The notes beneath the pieces are model-generated. The model made no database searches. It was not told the DNA's origin and was given only the letters and a program-made list of their open reading frames with translations. From Limnochorda sp. L945t (GTDB lineage Bacteria; Bacillota; Limnochordia; Limnochordales; Geochordaceae), in assembly GCF_035593305.1 (NCBI RefSeq), contig NZ_CP141615.1, forward strand, positions 2,821,722 through 2,885,721: a stretch of 64,000 bases of DNA, in the 5' to 3' direction. Positions 6,479 through 47,056 of the stretch are shown here, in pieces; within the stretch, counting starts at the first letter, position 1; every line of letters starts with the position of its first letter. The position numbers were made by a program, and so were the translations under genes.

Positions 6479-7333
6479 TCATGTTTCCCACCAGTACGAC
6501 ACGCCCACGAGGCCCGGCCCGGTGTGGGTCGCCACCGCCGGCGTGAAGTAGCCGAAGTACCGCTCCACGATGGGGAAACGCTCCTCGATCCGCTCCAGGA
6601 CGGCCTGCCCGTCGTCTCTTGCTTCGGCATGCATCACGCCCACGTGCAACCGGCCGCTCGACATCGCGGGCCGCTCGGAGGCGATCAGCTCCACCAGCCG
6701 CTCCAGAGCCCGCCCCCACGAACGCACGCGATCCGCCGTGTCCACCACGCCGTCCTGCCCGATCGTGATGATCGGCTTGATTTGCAGCAAAGACCCCACG
6801 GCCGCGGCCGCCCGTCCCACCCGGCCGGTGCGCTGCAGGTACCGCAGCGTGTGCACCGCGGCATACATGGCGACTCGGGGCCGCAGCTGGCGCACCCTGG
6901 TCTCCACCTCCGCAGCGCTGGCCCCCGTACTCGCAACGCGCGCCGCCTCCAGCACCAGGAACCCCTGTGCGATGGAGGCCGTCTTGGTGTCGACGATCGT
7001 CGCCCGGCCGCCCCACTCCCTCGCCGCCGTCATGGCCGCGTCGTAGGCGCCGCTCAGGCGAGCCGACGGCGTGAGCACCACGACCTCCTCGGCCTCCCGG
7101 GAAGCATCCTCGAACGCCTCGAGATACGACTGGGGCGTCGGCCGGGAGGTGATCGGCAGCGGGTCCGCCAGGGCCAACCGCCGGTAGAACTCCTCCAGGG
7201 TCAGATCGATCCCCTCCCGGTAGGACGTCTCGCCGAAGATCACGATCTGCGGCACGACCCGTACGCCGTACCGGCGGTAGACCGCCTCCGGCAGGTTGGC
7301 GACGGTGTCCGTGATGACGGCGACGCGAGTCAC
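6479..7333 (-). CDS. DegV family fatty-acid-binding protein
   Basis: DegV (FakB-type) proteins bind a fatty acid and present it to a FakA kinase for incorporation into phospholipid. The 284-aa protein starts VAVITDTVANLP, where the TDS/TDT loop holds the carboxylate. It has the YREGIDLTLEEFY segment, TSRPTPQSY, a VVLTPSARLSGAYDAA motif and IVDTKTASIAQGF, all typical. The C-terminal domain (IKPIITIGQDGVV ... VGVMHAEA) is complete. It is the second minus-strand gene after tdk, with a 142-base gap, and converges with the barrel-like gene. The fakA partner is not in the window. Confidence 0.9.
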   Translation of the reverse strand: MTRVAVITDTVANLPEAVYRRYGVRVVPQIVIFGETSYREGIDLTLEEFYRRLALADPLPITSRPTPQSYLEAFEDASREAEEVVVLTPSARLSGAYDAAMTAAREWGGRATIVDTKTASIAQGFLVLEAARVASTGASAAEVETRVRQLRPRVAMYAAVHTLRYLQRTGRVGRAAAAVGSLLQIKPIITIGQDGVVDTADRVRSWGRALERLVELIASERPAMSSGRLHVGVMHAEARDDGQAVLERIEERFPIVERYFGYFTPAVATHTGPGLVGVSYWWET

Positions 7334-8306: not shown

Positions 8307-9161
8307 CTGCACATCGTCGTGTGCATCAAGCAGGTGCCGGACAGCCGCGAAATCCGGGTGGATCCCAAGACCAACACCTTGATGCGCCAGGGCGTTCCGT
8401 CCGTCGTCAACCCGTACGACCTCCACGCCGTCGAGGAGGCCGTCCGCATCAAGGGGCGGTTCCCGGGGACCCGCGTCACGGCGCTTTCCATGGGGCCGAT
8501 GATGGCCGTGAGCGCCGTCAAGGAGTGCGTGGCCCTGGGCGCAGACGAGGGCGTGCTCATCAGCGACCGGGCGTTTGCCGGAGCCGATACGCTGGCGACC
8601 TCGTACGCCCTCGCCGAGGGGATCCGCAAGGCCGCGTCCTTGTGGGGGCCGGTCGACCTCGTGCTGTGCGGGAAGCAGACCATCGACGGCGACACGGGGC
8701 AGGTGGGCCCAGGCCTGGCAGCCCGGCTGCAGTTCGAGCAGCTCACGTACGTCGACGCCATCGATCGGCTGGACCCGTCCGAGCGGCGGATCCGGGTGCG
8801 CCGCCACCTCGAGGACGGCGCGGAGGTGGTCGAGACATCCTTGCCCGCGGTGCTGACCGTCATGGAGACCATCAACAAGGTCCACCGGGCATCCCTGCCG
8901 GCGGTGCTCCGAGCCGTGCGCTACCAGCCCATCGTCTGGACCCTCAAGGATTTCCCGGAAATCGACCGCGGCCAGATCGGGCTCAAGGGGTCTCCCACCG
9001 TGGTCGGCAAGGCGTGGGTCCCCGAACCGATCCGGAGAGCGGGCCAGCGCCTGGAGGGGCAGCCTCCTGAGGCAGCGGCTCACGCGCTCTTCGAGCTCTT
9101 GGACCAGCGCCGGCTGCCCGAGAAGCTCGGGTGGGCACCCGCGGCAGTCGCGAAAGGGTGA
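8307..9161 (+). CDS. fixA: Electron transfer flavoprotein beta subunit (FixA type)
   Basis: The FixA/EtfB subunit pairs with FixB and binds the bifurcating FAD or AMP and NADH. The protein (284 aa) reads HIVVCIKQVPDSREIRVDP at the start and has the VNPYDLHAVEEAVRIK segment, SMGP, ALGADEGVLISD and CGKQTIDGDTGQVGPGLA motifs of the family. The only start codon that gives this N-terminus and has a well-placed ribosome-binding site (GGGAGGGG at 8293-8300) is CTG at 8307. A GTG at 8319 would trim four residues and lies 18 bases from that site. It is the first gene of fixABCX, 7 bases before fixB. Confidence 0.9.
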   Translation: MHIVVCIKQVPDSREIRVDPKTNTLMRQGVPSVVNPYDLHAVEEAVRIKGRFPGTRVTALSMGPMMAVSAVKECVALGADEGVLISDRAFAGADTLATSYALAEGIRKAASLWGPVDLVLCGKQTIDGDTGQVGPGLAARLQFEQLTYVDAIDRLDPSERRIRVRRHLEDGAEVVETSLPAVLTVMETINKVHRASLPAVLRAVRYQPIVWTLKDFPEIDRGQIGLKGSPTVVGKAWVPEPIRRAGQRLEGQPPEAAAHALFELLDQRRLPEKLGWAPAAVAKG

Positions 9162-36386: not shown

Positions 36387-36956
36387 ATGCTGGGGCCCGA
36401 ACGACATCGGCGCATCCTCGAGCACCTACGCCAGCACGGCTCCGCCACAGTACAGGCGCTGTGCCGGATGCTGGGCGTCTCGCGCATGACGGTCCAGCGG
36501 GATCTGGCCGCCCTCGCCCGGCGCGGCGTGCTGGTCCGCGTGCGGGGTGGGGCCGTCCGGGCAGACGTCCCACCCGCGGGCGCACCCGATCGCTGTGAGA
36601 TCTGCGGGGTGCCCGTTCGCGTACGGGATGCGTTCGTCGTCGTCGACGATAGCGGCAGGCGCCATATGGCATGTTGCCCCCATTGCGGAGTGCTGCTGGC
36701 CCGGATGGTGGCCCCTGCCACCGCCCTGGCGGCCGATTTCCTGACCGGTCGCGTCCTGGAGGCCAGGAGTGCCACGTACGTGGTGGACTCCGAGGTCCAT
36801 ACCTGCTGCTCTCCGTCCGTACTGGCCTTCGCCGGGGCCGACGAGGCCTCCCGGTTTCAGGGCGCGTTCGGCGGGAAGCTGGTCCGGTGGGCCGGCCTCT
36901 CGCGCGAGCTCACCCACCCTCGTGCGTTGCCCGGCCCGTCCCGTAACGTCTCGTAA
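36387..36956 (+). CDS. DeoR-type HTH fused to a cysteine-rich NosL-like domain, putative copper regulator
   Basis: The N-terminus (about 5-57) is a DeoR winged helix (RHRRILEHLRQHGSATVQAL, CRMLGVSRMTVQRDLAALA). It is followed not by a sugar-phosphate sensor but by a NosL-like domain (about 68-170): CEIC at C70/C73, a HMACCPHC cluster at H93-C100, and SATYVVDSEVHTCC at C140/C141. FAGADEASRFQGAFGGKLVRW then matches the NosL C-terminal strand and helix. NosL binds Cu(I). The two genes directly downstream encode copper chaperones, so it probably senses copper and acts on the palindrome at 36339-36357 (inference). GGAGAAGG precedes the ATG. The protein is 189 aa. Confidence 0.75.
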   Translation: MLGPERHRRILEHLRQHGSATVQALCRMLGVSRMTVQRDLAALARRGVLVRVRGGAVRADVPPAGAPDRCEICGVPVRVRDAFVVVDDSGRRHMACCPHCGVLLARMVAPATALAADFLTGRVLEARSATYVVDSEVHTCCSPSVLAFAGADEASRFQGAFGGKLVRWAGLSRELTHPRALPGPSRNVS

Positions 36957-36985
36957 GAGGCACAAGGAAGGGGGGCAAACTCACC

Positions 36986-37603
36986 ATGCAAAGGCTCCGC
37001 ACGTCCCGGCGGATCTGGATCCTGGTAGCCCTCGTCGTGATCGCGGGCGCCGCGTCGGCCGTCGGATGGTCCCTGACCCGCCCGAGGGCGCCGGGTTTCC
37101 GGGGGGCCGCGGTCAATCCCCCGTACCCCGCCCCCGACTTCACCCTGGTCGACCAGAGGGGGGAGCCTTTTCGGTTCTCGTCCTTGCGCGGCAAAGTGGT
37201 CGCCCTGTACTTCGGGTACACCTTCTGCCCGGACGCCTGCCCCGGCACGCTCCTCAACTTCCGCCAGGCTCGCCAGCTGCTGGGCAACCAGGCCGACCGG
37301 GTGCAGTTCGTCTTCGTGAGCGTCGATCCGGATCGGGACTCGCCCGAGAGGATCCGGGAGTACCTGTCCAACTTCGACCCGAGCTTCCTGGGGCTCACCG
37401 GTAAGCCGGCCCAGGTGACGGCCGTGCTCAGGCAGTACGGGGTGGTGGCGGAGAAAGTCTACGTCGAGGGCTCCAGCGCCGGGTATCTCATGAATCACAC
37501 CGCCTCGGTCTATCTCATCGACCCCAACGGGATGATGCGGGTCATGGTCTTCTACGGGCAGAGAGCGGAAGACCTGGCCCACGACATCCGGCAACTCCTG
37601 TAA
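36986..37603 (+). CDS. Sco1/SenC-family copper chaperone
   Basis: Sco proteins deliver copper to the CuA site of cytochrome oxidase or act as thiol reductases. The 205-aa protein has one N-terminal membrane anchor (about 10-29) and a thioredoxin-like domain facing outside. It carries the metal motif CPDACP (C81 and C85) and the distant H171 in NHTASVYLID, the complete Cu ligand set. It is 29 bases after the regulator and 21 bases before the PCuAC gene. No oxidase genes are in the window. Confidence 0.93.
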   Translation: MQRLRTSRRIWILVALVVIAGAASAVGWSLTRPRAPGFRGAAVNPPYPAPDFTLVDQRGEPFRFSSLRGKVVALYFGYTFCPDACPGTLLNFRQARQLLGNQADRVQFVFVSVDPDRDSPERIREYLSNFDPSFLGLTGKPAQVTAVLRQYGVVAEKVYVEGSSAGYLMNHTASVYLIDPNGMMRVMVFYGQRAEDLAHDIRQLL

Positions 37604-37624
37604 AGGGAAGGGACGGGGTACGGT

Positions 37625-38191
37625 ATGGCAGAGCGGTTGCAGAGCCGGTTGTTGGGGAGGCGGGGCGAGCTGCGGCGCCCGGCCGGCGCGCCACTCGTGG
37701 CCGGCGCCGCGCTGGTGGCCGCCGCATTCGTGTGGGCGTTTTCGACGGGCCTCGCCGGGGCCGCGGCTCCGGCAAAGGCGGCCGGCGCGGCCCAAGCGCC
37801 ACCCCAGGGCATCCGGGTGGAGGACGTCTGGGCCAGGCCGGCAAAGGCCATGGGAGGCCATGGAGATGCCTCCATGGGGATGACCGGCGCCATTTTCCTC
37901 ACGTTGGTCAACGACAGCGCGTCCACGCGCTACCTGGTGGCGGTGAAGTCCGACGTGGCCGGCGCGGTGGAGCTCCATGAGACCCGGATCGTCGACAACG
38001 TCATGAAGATGCAGCCGGTGGCCCGCATCGAGGTACCGGCCAAGGGGCGGGCCCAGCTCAAGCCTGGCGGGTACCACATCATGCTGCTCGGGCTGCGCCG
38101 CACCCTGGCAGAGGGCGACCGCTTCCGGGCCACCCTGGTCTTCGACGACGGCTCCGAGCTGGCGGTCGACGTACCGGTCGAGATGCGCTGA
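37625..38191 (+). CDS. PCu(A)C-type periplasmic copper chaperone
   Basis: PCuAC proteins hold Cu(I) outside the membrane and pass it to Sco or CuA. The 188-aa protein has a membrane anchor or signal segment (about 22-46) and the exact family motif HX10MX21HXM at H118, M129, H151 and M153. An insertion before the core (AMGGHGDASMGM, about 75-86) adds His and Met residues that may bind a second metal. It ends the three-gene copper operon, before a strong hairpin. Confidence 0.93.
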   Translation: MAERLQSRLLGRRGELRRPAGAPLVAGAALVAAAFVWAFSTGLAGAAAPAKAAGAAQAPPQGIRVEDVWARPAKAMGGHGDASMGMTGAIFLTLVNDSASTRYLVAVKSDVAGAVELHETRIVDNVMKMQPVARIEVPAKGRAQLKPGGYHIMLLGLRRTLAEGDRFRATLVFDDGSELAVDVPVEMR

Positions 38192-38255
38192 AGCGGCCGC
38201 ACGCCCCCCCCTCACCCGGGCACGGGTCGCGGGGCGGCCGGTGGCCGAGAACGTC

Positions 38256-38286
38256 CCCTGAGCGGCCACGCAGCGGCCGCTCAGGG
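38256..38286. terminator. Bidirectional terminator hairpin between the copper operon and sodC
   Basis: A perfect 12-bp stem, CCCTGAGCGGCC (38256-38267) with GGCCGCTCAGGG (38275-38286), and a 7-base loop. It contains the sodC stop codon and separates convergent genes. Confidence 0.65.
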
Positions 38287-38874
38287 CCTCTGGATGACGC
38301 CACAAGCGAGGCGCTTGCCGGAGGCTCCTGCCGGCTGGGTACGGTAGTCGTCCGGGTTTTCGTGGATGATGACCGCGCGCCCGAGGATGGCCGCGACACG
38401 AAGGCGTGACGTGAAGAAAGTCATGGACGCCCGGCCGGCGTTGGAGAAGAGCACCGGGAAGTCACCGGCATGGTTGCCGTGGGGCTGGCCGCTGTCGTCG
38501 AAATGCCCCCCTGCGGCCAGGAACGGATCGGTCGCGTCGCCCACCGTGCAGTCACCCTTCTCGTGGATGTGGAACCCGTGGGGCCCGATGGGCGCCCTCC
38601 CCGGCGTCGCCGGGGCGTAGGGCGGCAACCCCTCGACCTCCACGGTCACCCGAACGCCCCCTTGGGTCTCCTGGAAACGGATCGTTCCGGAGATCTCAGG
38701 CGCCAGCGGGCCCCCGCGCACGTACGCCACGGCCTCCGGCGGTTTGCCGATGTTGCGCAGCACCCTCGCCGCGGCCAGGAGGGCCACGAGCGCCAGGACC
38801 AGCGCCGCCACCACGATCCGGTCTCGCCGGCCGGATGGGTCGCTCGCCCGCCTGCTGCCCACCAGGGGCACCAC
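38281..38874 (-). CDS. sodC: Copper/zinc superoxide dismutase
   Basis: SodC detoxifies superoxide outside the cytoplasm. The 197-aa protein has an N-terminal membrane anchor (about 19-37) and a complete Cu/Zn site: H102 and H104 (GFHIHEKGDC), H124 (GGHF), H132, H135 and D138 (zinc loop) and H171 (VIIHENPDDY). The disulfide pair is C109/C191 and the guiding Arg is in GKRLAC. It converges with the copper chaperone operon, which may load it. Cu/Zn SOD is uncommon in spore-formers, though Bacillus YojM is a relative. Confidence 0.95.
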   Translation of the reverse strand: MVPLVGSRRASDPSGRRDRIVVAALVLALVALLAAARVLRNIGKPPEAVAYVRGGPLAPEISGTIRFQETQGGVRVTVEVEGLPPYAPATPGRAPIGPHGFHIHEKGDCTVGDATDPFLAAGGHFDDSGQPHGNHAGDFPVLFSNAGRASMTFFTSRLRVAAILGRAVIIHENPDDYRTQPAGASGKRLACGVIQRP

Positions 38875-43521: not shown

Positions 43522-43550
43522 TTGGCGGGACGGCCCGGCGCAGGTATGGT
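43522..43550 (+). promoter_or_regulatory. Sigma-A type promoter of the BlaI-like gene
   Basis: TTGGCG (43522-43527), a 17-base spacer and TATGGT (43545-43550). The palindrome at 43561-43579 would cover the transcription start, as expected for autorepression. Confidence 0.6.
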
Positions 43551-43560
43551 GAGCCATGAG

Positions 43561-43579
43561 CACTACAAGGCGTAGCGTC
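43561..43579. promoter_or_regulatory. BlaI-type operator, copy 1
   Basis: CACTACAAGGCGTAGCGTC lies just downstream of the blaI-like promoter. It matches the 19 bases at 45063-45081 in 17 positions. The symmetric CTAC ... GTAG core recalls BlaI/MecI operators. Confidence 0.65.
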
Positions 43580-43638
43580 CGCCGGTCGTACCCTTTCGCC
43601 GGCCGGGCGTGCGCTGGGGGCAACGGCGAGGAGAGCCC

Positions 43639-44124
43639 ATGACACCGCGTCGTGGATCACGGGACGACGGCCCCGGAGCGGCGGGCACCTCCGCAACGGG
43701 AGCGCCGGGCCTGGGCGAGCTCGAGGCTCAGGTGATGGAGGCGCTGTGGACGATGGGGGAGGCAAGCATCCGGGACGTGTGGGAGCGGCTGCGTCCGGGC
43801 CGGAAGCGGCCCCTCGCCTTCAACACGGTCATGACCGTGATGAACCGGCTCGTGGAAAAGGGGCTTCTCCGGCGCAGCGGTGCTCGCGGCCACTACCTCT
43901 TCCGGCCTGCTCTTTCTCGGGAAGCGTACGCCAGGGACCTGGCCCGCACCATCAACCGTCGTATCTTCGATGTCTTCCAGGACGCAGCCGTCGCCGGGTT
44001 CGTGGAGTCCATCCGGGAGCTCGACACGGAGTCCTTGCGGCAGCTCGAGGCATTCATCCACCGGGAGCGGGTGAGCAGGGGTGATGAGCCGTCTCCGCAG
44101 GCCGGCGAGCCGCCCGCCGGCTGA
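43639..44124 (+). CDS. BlaI/MecI/CopY-family transcriptional repressor
   Basis: The 161-aa protein has an acidic, Gly-rich N-terminal extension (1-25), then the BlaI winged helix ([27 protein letters not shown] ... [21 protein letters not shown]) and the C-terminal dimerisation helices ([20 protein letters not shown]). BlaI repressors are inactivated by cleavage triggered by an M56 membrane protease, and such a gene follows directly. The ATG at 43639 follows GCGAGGAG. No beta-lactamase or penicillin-binding protein gene is near; the probable target is the molybdoenzyme operon at 45110-50217. Confidence 0.92.
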
Positions 44125-44134
44125 GGAGGGCAGC

Positions 44135-44986
44135 GTGAGCCGGATGGCCCGGCAAGATCTCCTGGCAAGTCTCGCCTTCTGGCTCTTGCCGGGTGCGGCC
44201 GCCGCGGCCACGGCCGGCATCGTGGCGGGCCTCGCCGTGCACGGCCTGACCCCGCGGATGGGATGGTGCTGGGGCGCCCTCAAGTGCACCCGCACGTACG
44301 GCCGATGGTTCTTCTTCACGCTCTTCCTGATGCTGGCCTTCACGGTGGCGGGAGCCGCCGTTTCCCTCGCGCGCCGTATCCGGGCGAGCCGGCGCCTCCT
44401 CGCCGGGCTGCTGGAGCTCCGGACACCGGCTCCGGCGCGCCTGCAGCACCTTGCCAGGAGCCTGGGGATGGAGCAGCGGATTGACGTGGTGGACGAGGCG
44501 GCGCCCGTCGTCTTCACCCACGGGCTGTTGCGGCCGAGGGTCCTCCTTTCGCGGGGGATCCTGGACCGCCTGAGCGACGAGGAGCTGGCCGCCGTGCTGG
44601 CCCACGAGCGCTACCACGTGCTCCGCCACGACCCGTTGCGTGTGCTGGTGGCGGGGGCGGCCGCCGACGCCCTCTTCTATCTGCCGGCCGCCGGCGAACT
44701 CCATCGTTGGTGGGACTCGGCCCGGGAGCTGGCCGCCGACGCGGCCGCCGTGGTGGCGCTCGGCCGGCTCCATCTGGCGCAGGCGCTGCACAAGCTCGGC
44801 TCCTGGCGCGAGGAGCCGTCGCCCTTCGCCATCGCCGGCGCGATGGGCGTGCTGGACTTGCGCATCACGCAGCTCGTCCATCCGGAACGGGCCTCCAACC
44901 GTATCCGGCTCTCTTTGCGCGCCGTGGCTGTGGCCAGCCTCTTCGCCGGTCTGCTGCTCGCCGGCTTCTTCGGGAGGTGCAGGTAG
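44135..44986 (+). CDS. M56 (BlaR1-like) membrane metallopeptidase without sensor domain
   Basis: The 283-aa protein has membrane spans at about 12-37 and 57-79, then the gluzincin core with zinc motif HERYH (H157, E158, H161) and a downstream SARELAADAAAV segment with the third ligand. A last span (about 263-279) ends in GRCR. BlaR1 has a large penicillin-binding domain after this; here the protein stops. The loop between the first two spans is short and carries C45 and C51 (WCWGALKC), a possible redox or metal sensor. GTG 44135 follows GAGGAGGG, 10 bases after the repressor gene. Confidence 0.88.
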   Translation: MSRMARQDLLASLAFWLLPGAAAAATAGIVAGLAVHGLTPRMGWCWGALKCTRTYGRWFFFTLFLMLAFTVAGAAVSLARRIRASRRLLAGLLELRTPAPARLQHLARSLGMEQRIDVVDEAAPVVFTHGLLRPRVLLSRGILDRLSDEELAAVLAHERYHVLRHDPLRVLVAGAAADALFYLPAAGELHRWWDSARELAADAAAVVALGRLHLAQALHKLGSWREEPSPFAIAGAMGVLDLRITQLVHPERASNRIRLSLRAVAVASLFAGLLLAGFFGRCR

Positions 44987-45060
44987 GGGCTCCGGGCCCG
45001 GGGCTTCGCCATCGTGGGGGGAGGCCGCGGAGCTTCGACACAAGCGATTTCGTGGGTCAA

Positions 45061-45081
45061 GACACTACATGGCGTAGTGTC
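45061..45081. promoter_or_regulatory. BlaI-type operator, copy 2, before the molybdoenzyme operon
   Basis: A perfect palindrome: arms GACACTAC and GTAGTGTC around ATGGC. The inner 19 bases match copy 1 at 43561-43579 in 17 positions. It lies 28 bases before the TTG start of the iron-sulfur subunit gene. Confidence 0.75.
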
Positions 45082-45109: not shown

Positions 45110-45796
45110 TTGAGCGATGCTACACGCGCGGCGAGCGCCCGGGTGGCAGCCGCCGCGCCCCGAGGTCCCAAGTGGGCCATGGTCATCGACCTGGCCAAGT
45201 GCGTGGGGTGCGACACCTGTACGGTGTCGTGCAAGGCCGAGAACCGCACGCCACCCGGCGTTTCGTATAACGTCCTCGTCGAAGAGGAGGTCGGCGCGTT
45301 CCCCAACGTGCGCCGCGTCCGGATCCCCAGGCCGTGCATGCAGTGCGACAACGCCCCCTGCGTCCAGGTCTGCCCGGTCGGCGCGACGTTCAAGATGGAC
45401 AACGGCATCGTGGCGATCGACTACGACCGCTGCATCGGGTGTCGCTACTGCATGGCCGCCTGCCCCTACGGAGCCCGTTCCTTCGACTTCGGAGAGAGCT
45501 ACGAGGACGAGATGGAAGGGTTCGACGAGGTCCAGGCGCCGGAGTACGGGATCGCCCGGGGGCGGCGCGAACGTGGGAGTTCTCCTGTGGGCAACGTGCG
45601 CAAGTGCCACTTCTGCTTCCACCGCCTGGAACGGGGCGAGGAGCCTGCCTGCGTCGAGACCTGCGTGGCCAACGCCCGGTATTTCGGTGACCTCAACGAC
45701 CCCAACAGCGTGGTCTCCCAGCTGGTCGCCGGCCCCCGGGCGTTTCGGCTCAAAGAGGAACTGGGCACCGAGCCCAGGGTCTGGTACTTGCGGTAG
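45110..45796 (+). CDS. Four-cluster iron-sulfur subunit of a molybdopterin oxidoreductase
   Basis: The 228-aa protein carries sixteen Cys in four groups (C31/34/37/41, C76/79/84/88, C108/111/114/118, C166/169/181/185), enough for four [4Fe-4S] clusters, as in TtrB, PsrB and DmsB. It would carry electrons between the membrane subunit and the catalytic subunit. There is no Tat signal of its own, so it is probably co-exported with the catalytic subunit. TTG 45110 follows AAGGGGGG. An earlier in-frame ATG (45014) is rejected because that reading would run through the operator. It is the first gene of a three-gene operon. Confidence 0.93.
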
Positions 45797-45838: not shown

Positions 45839-47056
45839 ATGGCAGTGTCGCATTCGTCGGGAACCCTGACCTGGCGCACGCGCTCCACGGCAAAGGCGGA
45901 GATCTGGACCCGACCCACCCCCGGGAGGGTCGTGCTTTTGCTCGCCCTGGCGGCGGGGCTGGCCGTGGGGGTCTGGGCGCTCGCCGTCCGGATCGGGCAG
46001 GGGCTGTCCAGCACCTGGCTCACGTCGATCACGCCCTGGGGCGCCTGGGTCGCCCTTTACATCTTCTTCGTGGGCTTGAGCGCGGGCGCGTTCTTGCTGT
46101 CTTCGGCCGTATACGTCCTGGGCCGCCACGATCTCGAGCCCGTCGGGCGGGAGGCCCTCGTCGTCGCGATCTTGAGCATGGGGGCCGCCCTGGGCTTCAT
46201 CGCGCTGGATCTGGGGCGGATGGACCGGGCGCTCGCCGCGTTCTTCTTCTGGAACCCGACGAGCGTGCTGGCGTGGGAGATGCGCTTTTACATCCTGTAC
46301 GTCGCCATCCTGGCAGCCGAACTGTGGCTTTCCGTCCGGGCCGGCCGCGAGGCGCGCGCCCGCCGGTGGCTCAAGGCGCTCGGTATCAGCGGGATTCCCA
46401 TCGCCATCTTCGGTGTCCACGGGGGCACGGGGCTGTTGTTCGCGGTGCTCAAAGCGCGCCCGCTCTGGAACACCGGCCTCTATCCGGTCCTGTTCGTCGT
46501 ATCGGCCCTGGTCTCCGGCACGGCGCTGGTGACGCTGCTGTACGCCCTGCGCCCCGTGGTGTGGCGCCGGAACGTCGACCGATCGCTGCTCTCGAGCCTG
46601 AGCCGCGCGCTGCTGGCTTTCCTTGCGGTCGAGGGCGGGCTCGAGCTGTTCGAGTACGTCGTGGCTGCCTACCGTGGCGAGCCCCTGGAAGGGGAGGCCC
46701 TTCGTCTCATGTGGTCCGGCGACCTGGCCTGGCTGTTTTGGGGTGTCCAGGTGCTGCTCGGCATGGTGGTGCCCACCGTGATCCTGCTCCGCCGGCCGGA
46801 TCGACCCACGGCGGTGGCGGCCGGCGCCGGCCTGGTCATCGCCGGCATCCTGGCGGTACGGTTCAACATCGTGCTGCCGCAGATGCTGGCGCCGGTGATG
46901 GAGGGGCTGCCGGCCGGGGTCTACCTGCCCTCGGCCGTCGAGTGGGGCGCCTCGCTGGGCATCCTCAGCGCCTTTACCGGCGCCTATCTGGCCTTCGGGA
47001 CATGGCTGCCGCTGCATGATGGCGAGGCCGCCGACGCCGGGCGAGAGGATCGGTGA
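45839..47056 (+). CDS. NrfD/PsrC-family quinone-interacting membrane subunit
   Basis: NrfD-type proteins exchange electrons with the quinone pool. The 405-aa protein has about ten membrane spans beginning at residue 30. It contains TSITPWGAWVALYIFFVGLSAGAFLLSSAVYVLG (typical of the family's second span), LGFIALDLGRMDRALAAFFFWNPTS, and a late VLPQMLAPVMEGLPAG loop. The size is between TtrC and PsrC/ArrC. It lies 42 bases after the iron-sulfur gene and overlaps the catalytic-subunit gene by four bases. Confidence 0.93.
   Translation: MAVSHSSGTLTWRTRSTAKAEIWTRPTPGRVVLLLALAAGLAVGVWALAVRIGQGLSSTWLTSITPWGAWVALYIFFVGLSAGAFLLSSAVYVLGRHDLEPVGREALVVAILSMGAALGFIALDLGRMDRALAAFFFWNPTSVLAWEMRFYILYVAILAAELWLSVRAGREARARRWLKALGISGIPIAIFGVHGGTGLLFAVLKARPLWNTGLYPVLFVVSALVSGTALVTLLYALRPVVWRRNVDRSLLSSLSRALLAFLAVEGGLELFEYVVAAYRGEPLEGEALRLMWSGDLAWLFWGVQVLLGMVVPTVILLRRPDRPTAVAAGAGLVIAGILAVRFNIVLPQMLAPVMEGLPAGVYLPSAVEWGASLGILSAFTGAYLAFGTWLPLHDGEAADAGREDR

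Follow-up and report, generated by a model that had tools for sequence, protein, structure and literature searches.

Why should a gene for a BlaI-type repressor stand shortly before an operon for a respiratory molybdoenzyme, with nearly the same palindrome in front of each? BlaI-BlaR pairs are usually viewed as antibiotic-resistance switches, and the original prediction for this locus of a heat-loving bacterium (Limnochorda sp. L945t) was that such a repressor is linked to a Tat-exported molybdopterin reductase. We have examined this link in the stretch of 64,000 nucleotides that contains the locus (contig NZ_CP141615.1; hereafter the window), in the genome as a whole and in related loci of other bacteria. 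The predicted link of the BlaI-type repressor to the molybdoenzyme operon gains strong support in silico, as most related BlaI-M56 loci of other Bacillota carry the same operator at the same two positions and with a spacer of equal length.

Two operator-like sites and the genes behind them

The features of the locus are listed in Table 1. Both 19-mers that had drawn attention to it are present (43561–43579 and 45063–45081) and identical at 17 of 19 bases, and 28 bases do separate the second from the TTG start codon at 45110. The second 19-mer is not, as had been thought, a perfect palindrome; the symmetric element, GACACTAC-ATGGC-GTAGTGTC, has perfectly symmetric arms of 8 bp around a centre of 5 bp that is not palindromic, and is located in the 123-bp gap between the M56 gene and the three-gene reductase operon. 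Site 1 is imperfect, with a mismatch in its right arm. The repressor and the reductase operon had been recognised correctly but the gene for an M56 membrane protease, which lies between both sites, had been overlooked. It follows directly behind blaI in the same orientation, an arrangement shared by nearly all relatives.

Table 1. Predicted features of the blaI-M56-molybdoenzyme locus (positions in the window).
Feature	Position	Strand	Remarks
Weak promoter-like pair for blaI, TTGGCG-N17-TATGGT	43522–43550	+	Agrees with the consensus at 8 of 12 bases, the best pair around site 1; missed by stricter scan
Operator 1 (predicted)	43561–43579	+	CACTAC-AAGGC-GTAGCG(TC); second-best match of the genome; 72 of 79 related loci have their operator 1 at the orthologous position
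BlaI/MecI/CopY-family repressor, 161 aa	43639–44124	+	PF03965, 85.2 bits (cut-off 22.6)
M56 BlaR1-type membrane zinc protease, 283 aa	44135–44986	+	PF05569, 47.2 bits; HExxH (H157-H161), E198; C45 and C51 in predicted extracytoplasmic loop
Operator 2 (predicted)	45061–45081	+	Sole exact CACTAC-N5-GTAGTG of the genome; arms kept, spacer changed in Bu05
TtrB/SrdB/DsrO-like 4Fe-4S subunit, TTG start	45110–45796	+	66–76% identical to subunits adjoining TtrA-like genes in other Bacillota
NrfD/TtrC-like membrane subunit	45839–47056	+	PF03916, 123.3 bits
Tat-type molybdopterin reductase, TtrA/SrdA lineage, 1054 aa	47053–50217	+	Best NCBIfam match TtrA, 444.8 bits; 50–60% identity to homologues in ca. 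20 Bacillota

Within the window, only these two sites match when up to three mismatches are allowed, where 0.01 would be expected from dinucleotide shuffles of the window. The whole-genome search for the palindrome that had been proposed as a check (ACACTAC-N5-GTAGTGT; single contig of 3,313,549 bp) found site 2 as the single exact match and site 1 as the only place with two mismatches, so that these are the two best matches in the genome. The 15 further places with three mismatches represent the background level; since matches elsewhere in the genome do not exceed this level, the regulon seems limited to the two sites. We estimate the chance that the second-best genomic match would fall 60–80 bp upstream of a BlaI-family gene at approximately 3 in 100,000 (100 bp in 3.3 Mb).

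Conservation of the operator beside related BlaI-M56 pairs

Operator-like palindromes before the repressor's own gene and before its presumed target (43561 and 45063) are conserved in relatives. Loci encoding BlaI relatives were fetched by protein similarity alone, which resulted in 80 loci (L123–L202), or 79 when that of Bu05 (JADBKR010000008), a second strain of the same species as the window, is left out. The DNA sites were no part of this selection. The DNA-recognition helix of the window BlaI is identical to that of most BlaI relatives fetched; because FNTVMTVM served as one of the search peptides, loci with this helix were favoured. When at most one mismatch is allowed, CACTAC-N5-GTAGTG matches 139 times in the 80 loci; spacers of 1–4 and 6–9 bp give 0–1 matches each, a spacer of 0 bp gives seven and one of 10 bp gives 12. 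This operator is found before blaI in 72 of the 79 loci, behind the M56 gene and before the next gene in 58, and at both positions in 54, and there is no match outside these two positions in 1.42 Mb of related loci. It is conserved in the BlaI-M56 pairs of the Bacillaceae and Paenibacillaceae, and its exact form was found in 25 out of 398 genomes of the phylum. Bu05 retains the two arms of site 2, while its spacer is GGGGC where the window has ATGGC.

More distant BlaI-M56 pairs of the same order possess TACTAC-type sites at the same two positions, with a spacer of 5 bp and an FtrD-like next gene in one locus (L109) and a spacer of 4 bp and an ABC transporter as the next gene in another (L110). 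The sites of the latter, a Limnochorda-type relative (approximately 7083–7101 and 8481–8503), read ATACTAC-CGCT-GTAGTAT and ATTACTAC-ATGT-GTAGTAAT, whereas the spacer of the window family is 5 bp. A Bacillus-type blaI-M56-DsbA-like locus was also encountered in a genome labelled Arthrobacter beigongshangensis (L162), possibly a mislabelled or mixed assembly.

The first gene behind operator 2 in the relatives (n = 70) encodes DoxX in 29 cases, a DsbA-like thioredoxin in 17, DUF3105 in nine, DUF2231 in four and YceI in two, while a cytochrome c is among the single cases. The nearest relatives have a DsbD/CcdA-type protein (L125) and TlpA- and Rieske-like proteins (L124). What these targets share is a role in electron transfer and thiol chemistry of the envelope. 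A respiratory molybdoenzyme, although new as a target, fits this theme of envelope redox functions.

The molybdoenzyme operon might, alternatively, be a mere neighbour whose site is a relic or due to chance, next to a BlaI-M56 pair that forms a stand-alone autoregulated unit responding to cell-wall stress or beta-lactams. Self-regulation is indeed frequent in BlaI-BlaR pairs (PMC8457756), and class A beta-lactamase-like genes are present elsewhere in the genome. However, of the two sites it is the one at the molybdoenzyme operon that matches better, and both strains share its arms, the operator precedes the gene behind M56 in the majority of the relatives (58/79), no site occurs near the beta-lactamase-like genes, and the M56 protein lacks a penicillin-binding domain. 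We consider this explanation improbable. Many other bacteria have the same sites next to related pairs, which suggests that the link between BlaI and the molybdoenzyme is real and does not concern antibiotics.

Promoters and the proposed switch

The suggestion that site 1 coincides with the start of the blaI transcript was not confirmed; a weak promoter match lies just upstream of it (Table 1), a stricter scan gave none, and the -10 box that is embedded in operator 1 of Bacilli is absent from site 1. No good sigma-70 promoter was detected by promoter scans at site 2, and at operator 2 of the relatives the sigma-70 score is no better than at random positions. In many Bacilli (L128–L202) a T run resembling a terminator immediately precedes operator 2, and no sigma-70 promoter could be recognised for the gene that follows. 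Operator 1 of the Bacilli relatives contains a -10 box (TACAAT/TATAAT), and a TTGACA-like box (at least 5/6 matches) is present 16–18 bp upstream in 55 of 70 relatives compared to 1% of random positions. With the -10 box inside the operator, repression is likely to proceed by promoter occlusion, which for the Bacilli subfamily appears well supported at the sequence level.

The location of this box also bears on the idea that the palindromes are RNA hairpins, acting as leader stabilisers or attenuators, rather than repressor sites. In the leader, site 2 could fold into a hairpin of 8 bp at a distance of 28 bases from the start codon (z about -2), but no folding is predicted for site 1 (z 0.87), much of operator 1 is untranscribed in the relatives since it holds the -10 box, and the letters of CACTAC and GTAGTG are conserved with an exact 5-bp spacing, which goes beyond mere pairing. 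Hairpins are, therefore, a very unlikely explanation.

We favour a repressor-based switch. A dimeric BlaI would bind CACTAC-N5-GTAG(T/C)G at two places, in front of blaI and in front of the ttrBCA/srdBCA-like operon, and repress both units. Upon an extracytoplasmic signal other than a beta-lactam, the M56 protease would, by homology, cleave BlaI, which would turn on the reductase and reset the levels of repressor and protease. That the locus is such a two-operator BlaI-BlaR-type switch over itself and the operon, relieved by M56 proteolysis, seems likely from the sequence comparisons.

The repressor, the protease and the proposed inducing signal

The winged-helix Penicillinase_R domain of the repressor scores above the family cut-off of PF03965 (85.2 vs. 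22.6 bits), and its nearest solved relative is BlaI of M. tuberculosis (2g9w). Its score against the model for the Bacillus-type penicillinase repressor BlaI (NF012168) is 27.6 bits, below the cut-off of 180. Staphylococcus aureus BlaR1 cleaves BlaI between N101 and F102 (PMC9834060); G120-F121 of the window BlaI aligns with this site, so the phenylalanine at the P1' position is probably kept.

Cleavage would be dispensable if the repressor were relieved by direct binding of a ligand or metal, as CopY is. CopY/TcrY is the best NCBIfam match of the window BlaI (41.6 bits) and a copper cluster with SCO1, PCuAC and SodC is located 5–7 kb upstream. The score is, however, far under the cut-off of 121.95, the protein does not contain any cysteine and thus no C-terminal CXC copper motif, and the M56 gene lies next to blaI in the same direction, which is also the case in nearly all relatives. 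Direct release therefore seems quite unlikely, and proteolysis by M56 is preferred. In the small copper cluster itself (36387–38874), genes for SCO1/SenC and PCuAC come after an unusual fusion of a DeoR-type helix-turn-helix to NosL, and the opposite strand encodes a Cu/Zn superoxide dismutase.

The M56 protein is only ca. 18–36% identical to its M56 relatives, but the protease core HExxH...E is present, with H157, E158, H161 and E198 invariant. Its top match, both by sequence profile and by fold, is BlaR1 (8exp), and its structure model (mean pLDDT 85.5) ends after the last helix. A domain search of its 283 aa detected no penicillin-binding sensor or transpeptidase domain, and hence the signal should not be a beta-lactam; for the window pair such a signal is unlikely. 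It had been stated that there is no beta-lactamase here; beta-lactamase-like genes do occur elsewhere in the genome, but no operator-like site lies near them. A beta-lactam link was consequently rejected, both for the lack of a sensor and of operators at these genes. The two strong class A beta-lactamase-like genes are located at 2190350–2191030 and 2521968–2522573 of the genome contig.

A cysteine between the first and second long helices is present in 74 out of 76 M56 proteins. In the window protein this is C45, with C51 nearby, the alignment being ambiguous between the two. Alignment with BlaR1 puts this cysteine in the extracellular loop EL1 (residues 56–96), which in BlaR1 participates in beta-lactam signalling (PMC9834060). 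We hypothesise that this nearly invariant cysteine is a candidate sensor of a thiol or metal signal, and a redox or sulfur signal felt by it is, speculatively, the leading candidate for the inducer.

The molybdoenzyme operon and its probable recruitment

The gene order of the operon is B-C-A, as in ttrBCA and srdBCA. With the TtrA equivalog (NF011567) the reductase gives its best score of all models, 444.8 bits, which is below the cut-off of 1750; PhsA comes second with half this score. Profile scores and gene order together would place the reductase nearest to the tetrathionate/selenate-reductase (TtrA/SrdA) lineage, and its probable role is to transfer electrons from quinol to a compound of sulfur, selenium or arsenic. 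Since the probable source strain respires elemental sulfur, the preferred candidate substrate is tetrathionate or polysulfide. This strain, Carboxydochorda subterranea L945T, has a closed circular genome with 97% amino-acid identity to Limnochordaceae bacterium Bu05 and grows by elemental-sulfur respiration, while thiosulfate is not used (PMC11456536). Elsewhere in the genome a molybdoenzyme-like frame (619890–620324 of the contig) has one in-frame TGA, which may mean selenocysteine.

In a search of 73 genomes of the class, the reductase turned up in just two, that of the window and that of Bu05, which fits the tetrathionate reductases noted in two Limnochordales genomes, L945T included (PMC11456536). 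A recent import of the operon, as judged by its G+C content, was rejected, since there is no difference between operon (70.3%) and window (70.0%). In the 20 other Bacillota with enzymes that are 50–60% identical, no BlaI gene was found beside the TtrA-like genes, the nearest being ca. 67–80 kb off. The pairing of BlaI with a molybdoenzyme was thus seen in only one species among the genomes of the class and the 20 Bacillota examined. For this reason it is probable that the operon was brought under BlaI control in an ancestor of L945T and Bu05.

Implications and comparison with known systems

The target, a respiratory molybdoenzyme, is what is new here; the regulatory logic, a BlaI-BlaR-type switch, in this case without a beta-lactam sensor, is already known. 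Neither the CACTAC-N5-GTAGTG subfamily nor a molybdoenzyme target was found described in the literature, and the same holds for a link of BlaI to DoxX, DsbA, molybdoenzymes or tetrathionate; this is weak evidence of absence, as the subscription literature was mostly outside the search. Many of the loci examined here hold pairs that lack a beta-lactam sensor, and operator conservation across the Bacillota now ties one of them to respiratory and envelope redox genes. If true, this would represent a new mode of regulating anaerobic respiration, by repressor proteolysis instead of a two-component system. The conserved loop cysteine offers a testable candidate for the sensor. A further-reaching reading, which we regard as possible but doubtful, is that the sensor-less BlaI-M56 pairs form a widespread and apparently undescribed class, which would sense extracytoplasmic redox conditions or reactive sulfur through the single EL1-equivalent cysteine, without a ligand-binding domain, and control envelope electron-transfer and thiol genes, and which would here have been recruited as a substrate-inducible switch of tetrathionate or polysulfide respiration.

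The BlaI-M56 pairs of the Bacillaceae and Paenibacillaceae share with the window the operator, its spacer and two positions, the recognition helix and a sensor-less M56 protein with the loop cysteine, but differ in the first target (DoxX, DsbA-like, DUF3105, DUF2231 or YceI) and in the -10 box within operator 1. BlaI-BlaR1 and MecI-MecR1 of S. aureus have the winged-helix repressor, the HExxH...E core of the M56 protease, paired operators and the P1' phenylalanine in common with the window, which differs from them in its operator, in having a respiratory operon as target and in lacking the penicillin-binding sensor. BlaI of M. tuberculosis (Rv1846c), the nearest solved repressor, also has a tie to energy metabolism: it has been linked to the ATP synthase operon (PMC12565901, PMC5874750), a precedent for BlaI control of energy metabolism. 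Its regulon comprises several dispersed targets, the ATP synthase and other loci, in contrast to the two adjacent targets of the window, one of them a molybdoenzyme. In Clostridium thermocellum, BlaI_0696 and BlaI_1845 have small autoregulated BlaI-BlaR regulons according to DAP-seq, and BlaI_0696 binds inverted repeats that are also five nucleotides apart; the half-sites (GTCTAT/GACTAT) differ from those of the window, and the targets are thought to be antibiotic response genes (PMC8457756). The copper repressors CopY/CopR belong to the same family (PF03965) and recognise related TAC/GTA half-sites, but their operator is RNYKACANNYGTMRNY (PMC7253601) and they possess the CXC metal motif that is missing from the window BlaI.

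On the side of the target, ttrBCA of Salmonella and srdBCA of Bacillus selenatarsenatis resemble the window operon in their B-C-A gene order and in an enzyme of the TtrA/SrdA lineage. Salmonella ttrBCA is regulated by the TtrRS two-component system, whereas the predicted regulator of the window operon is the adjacent BlaI-M56 pair.
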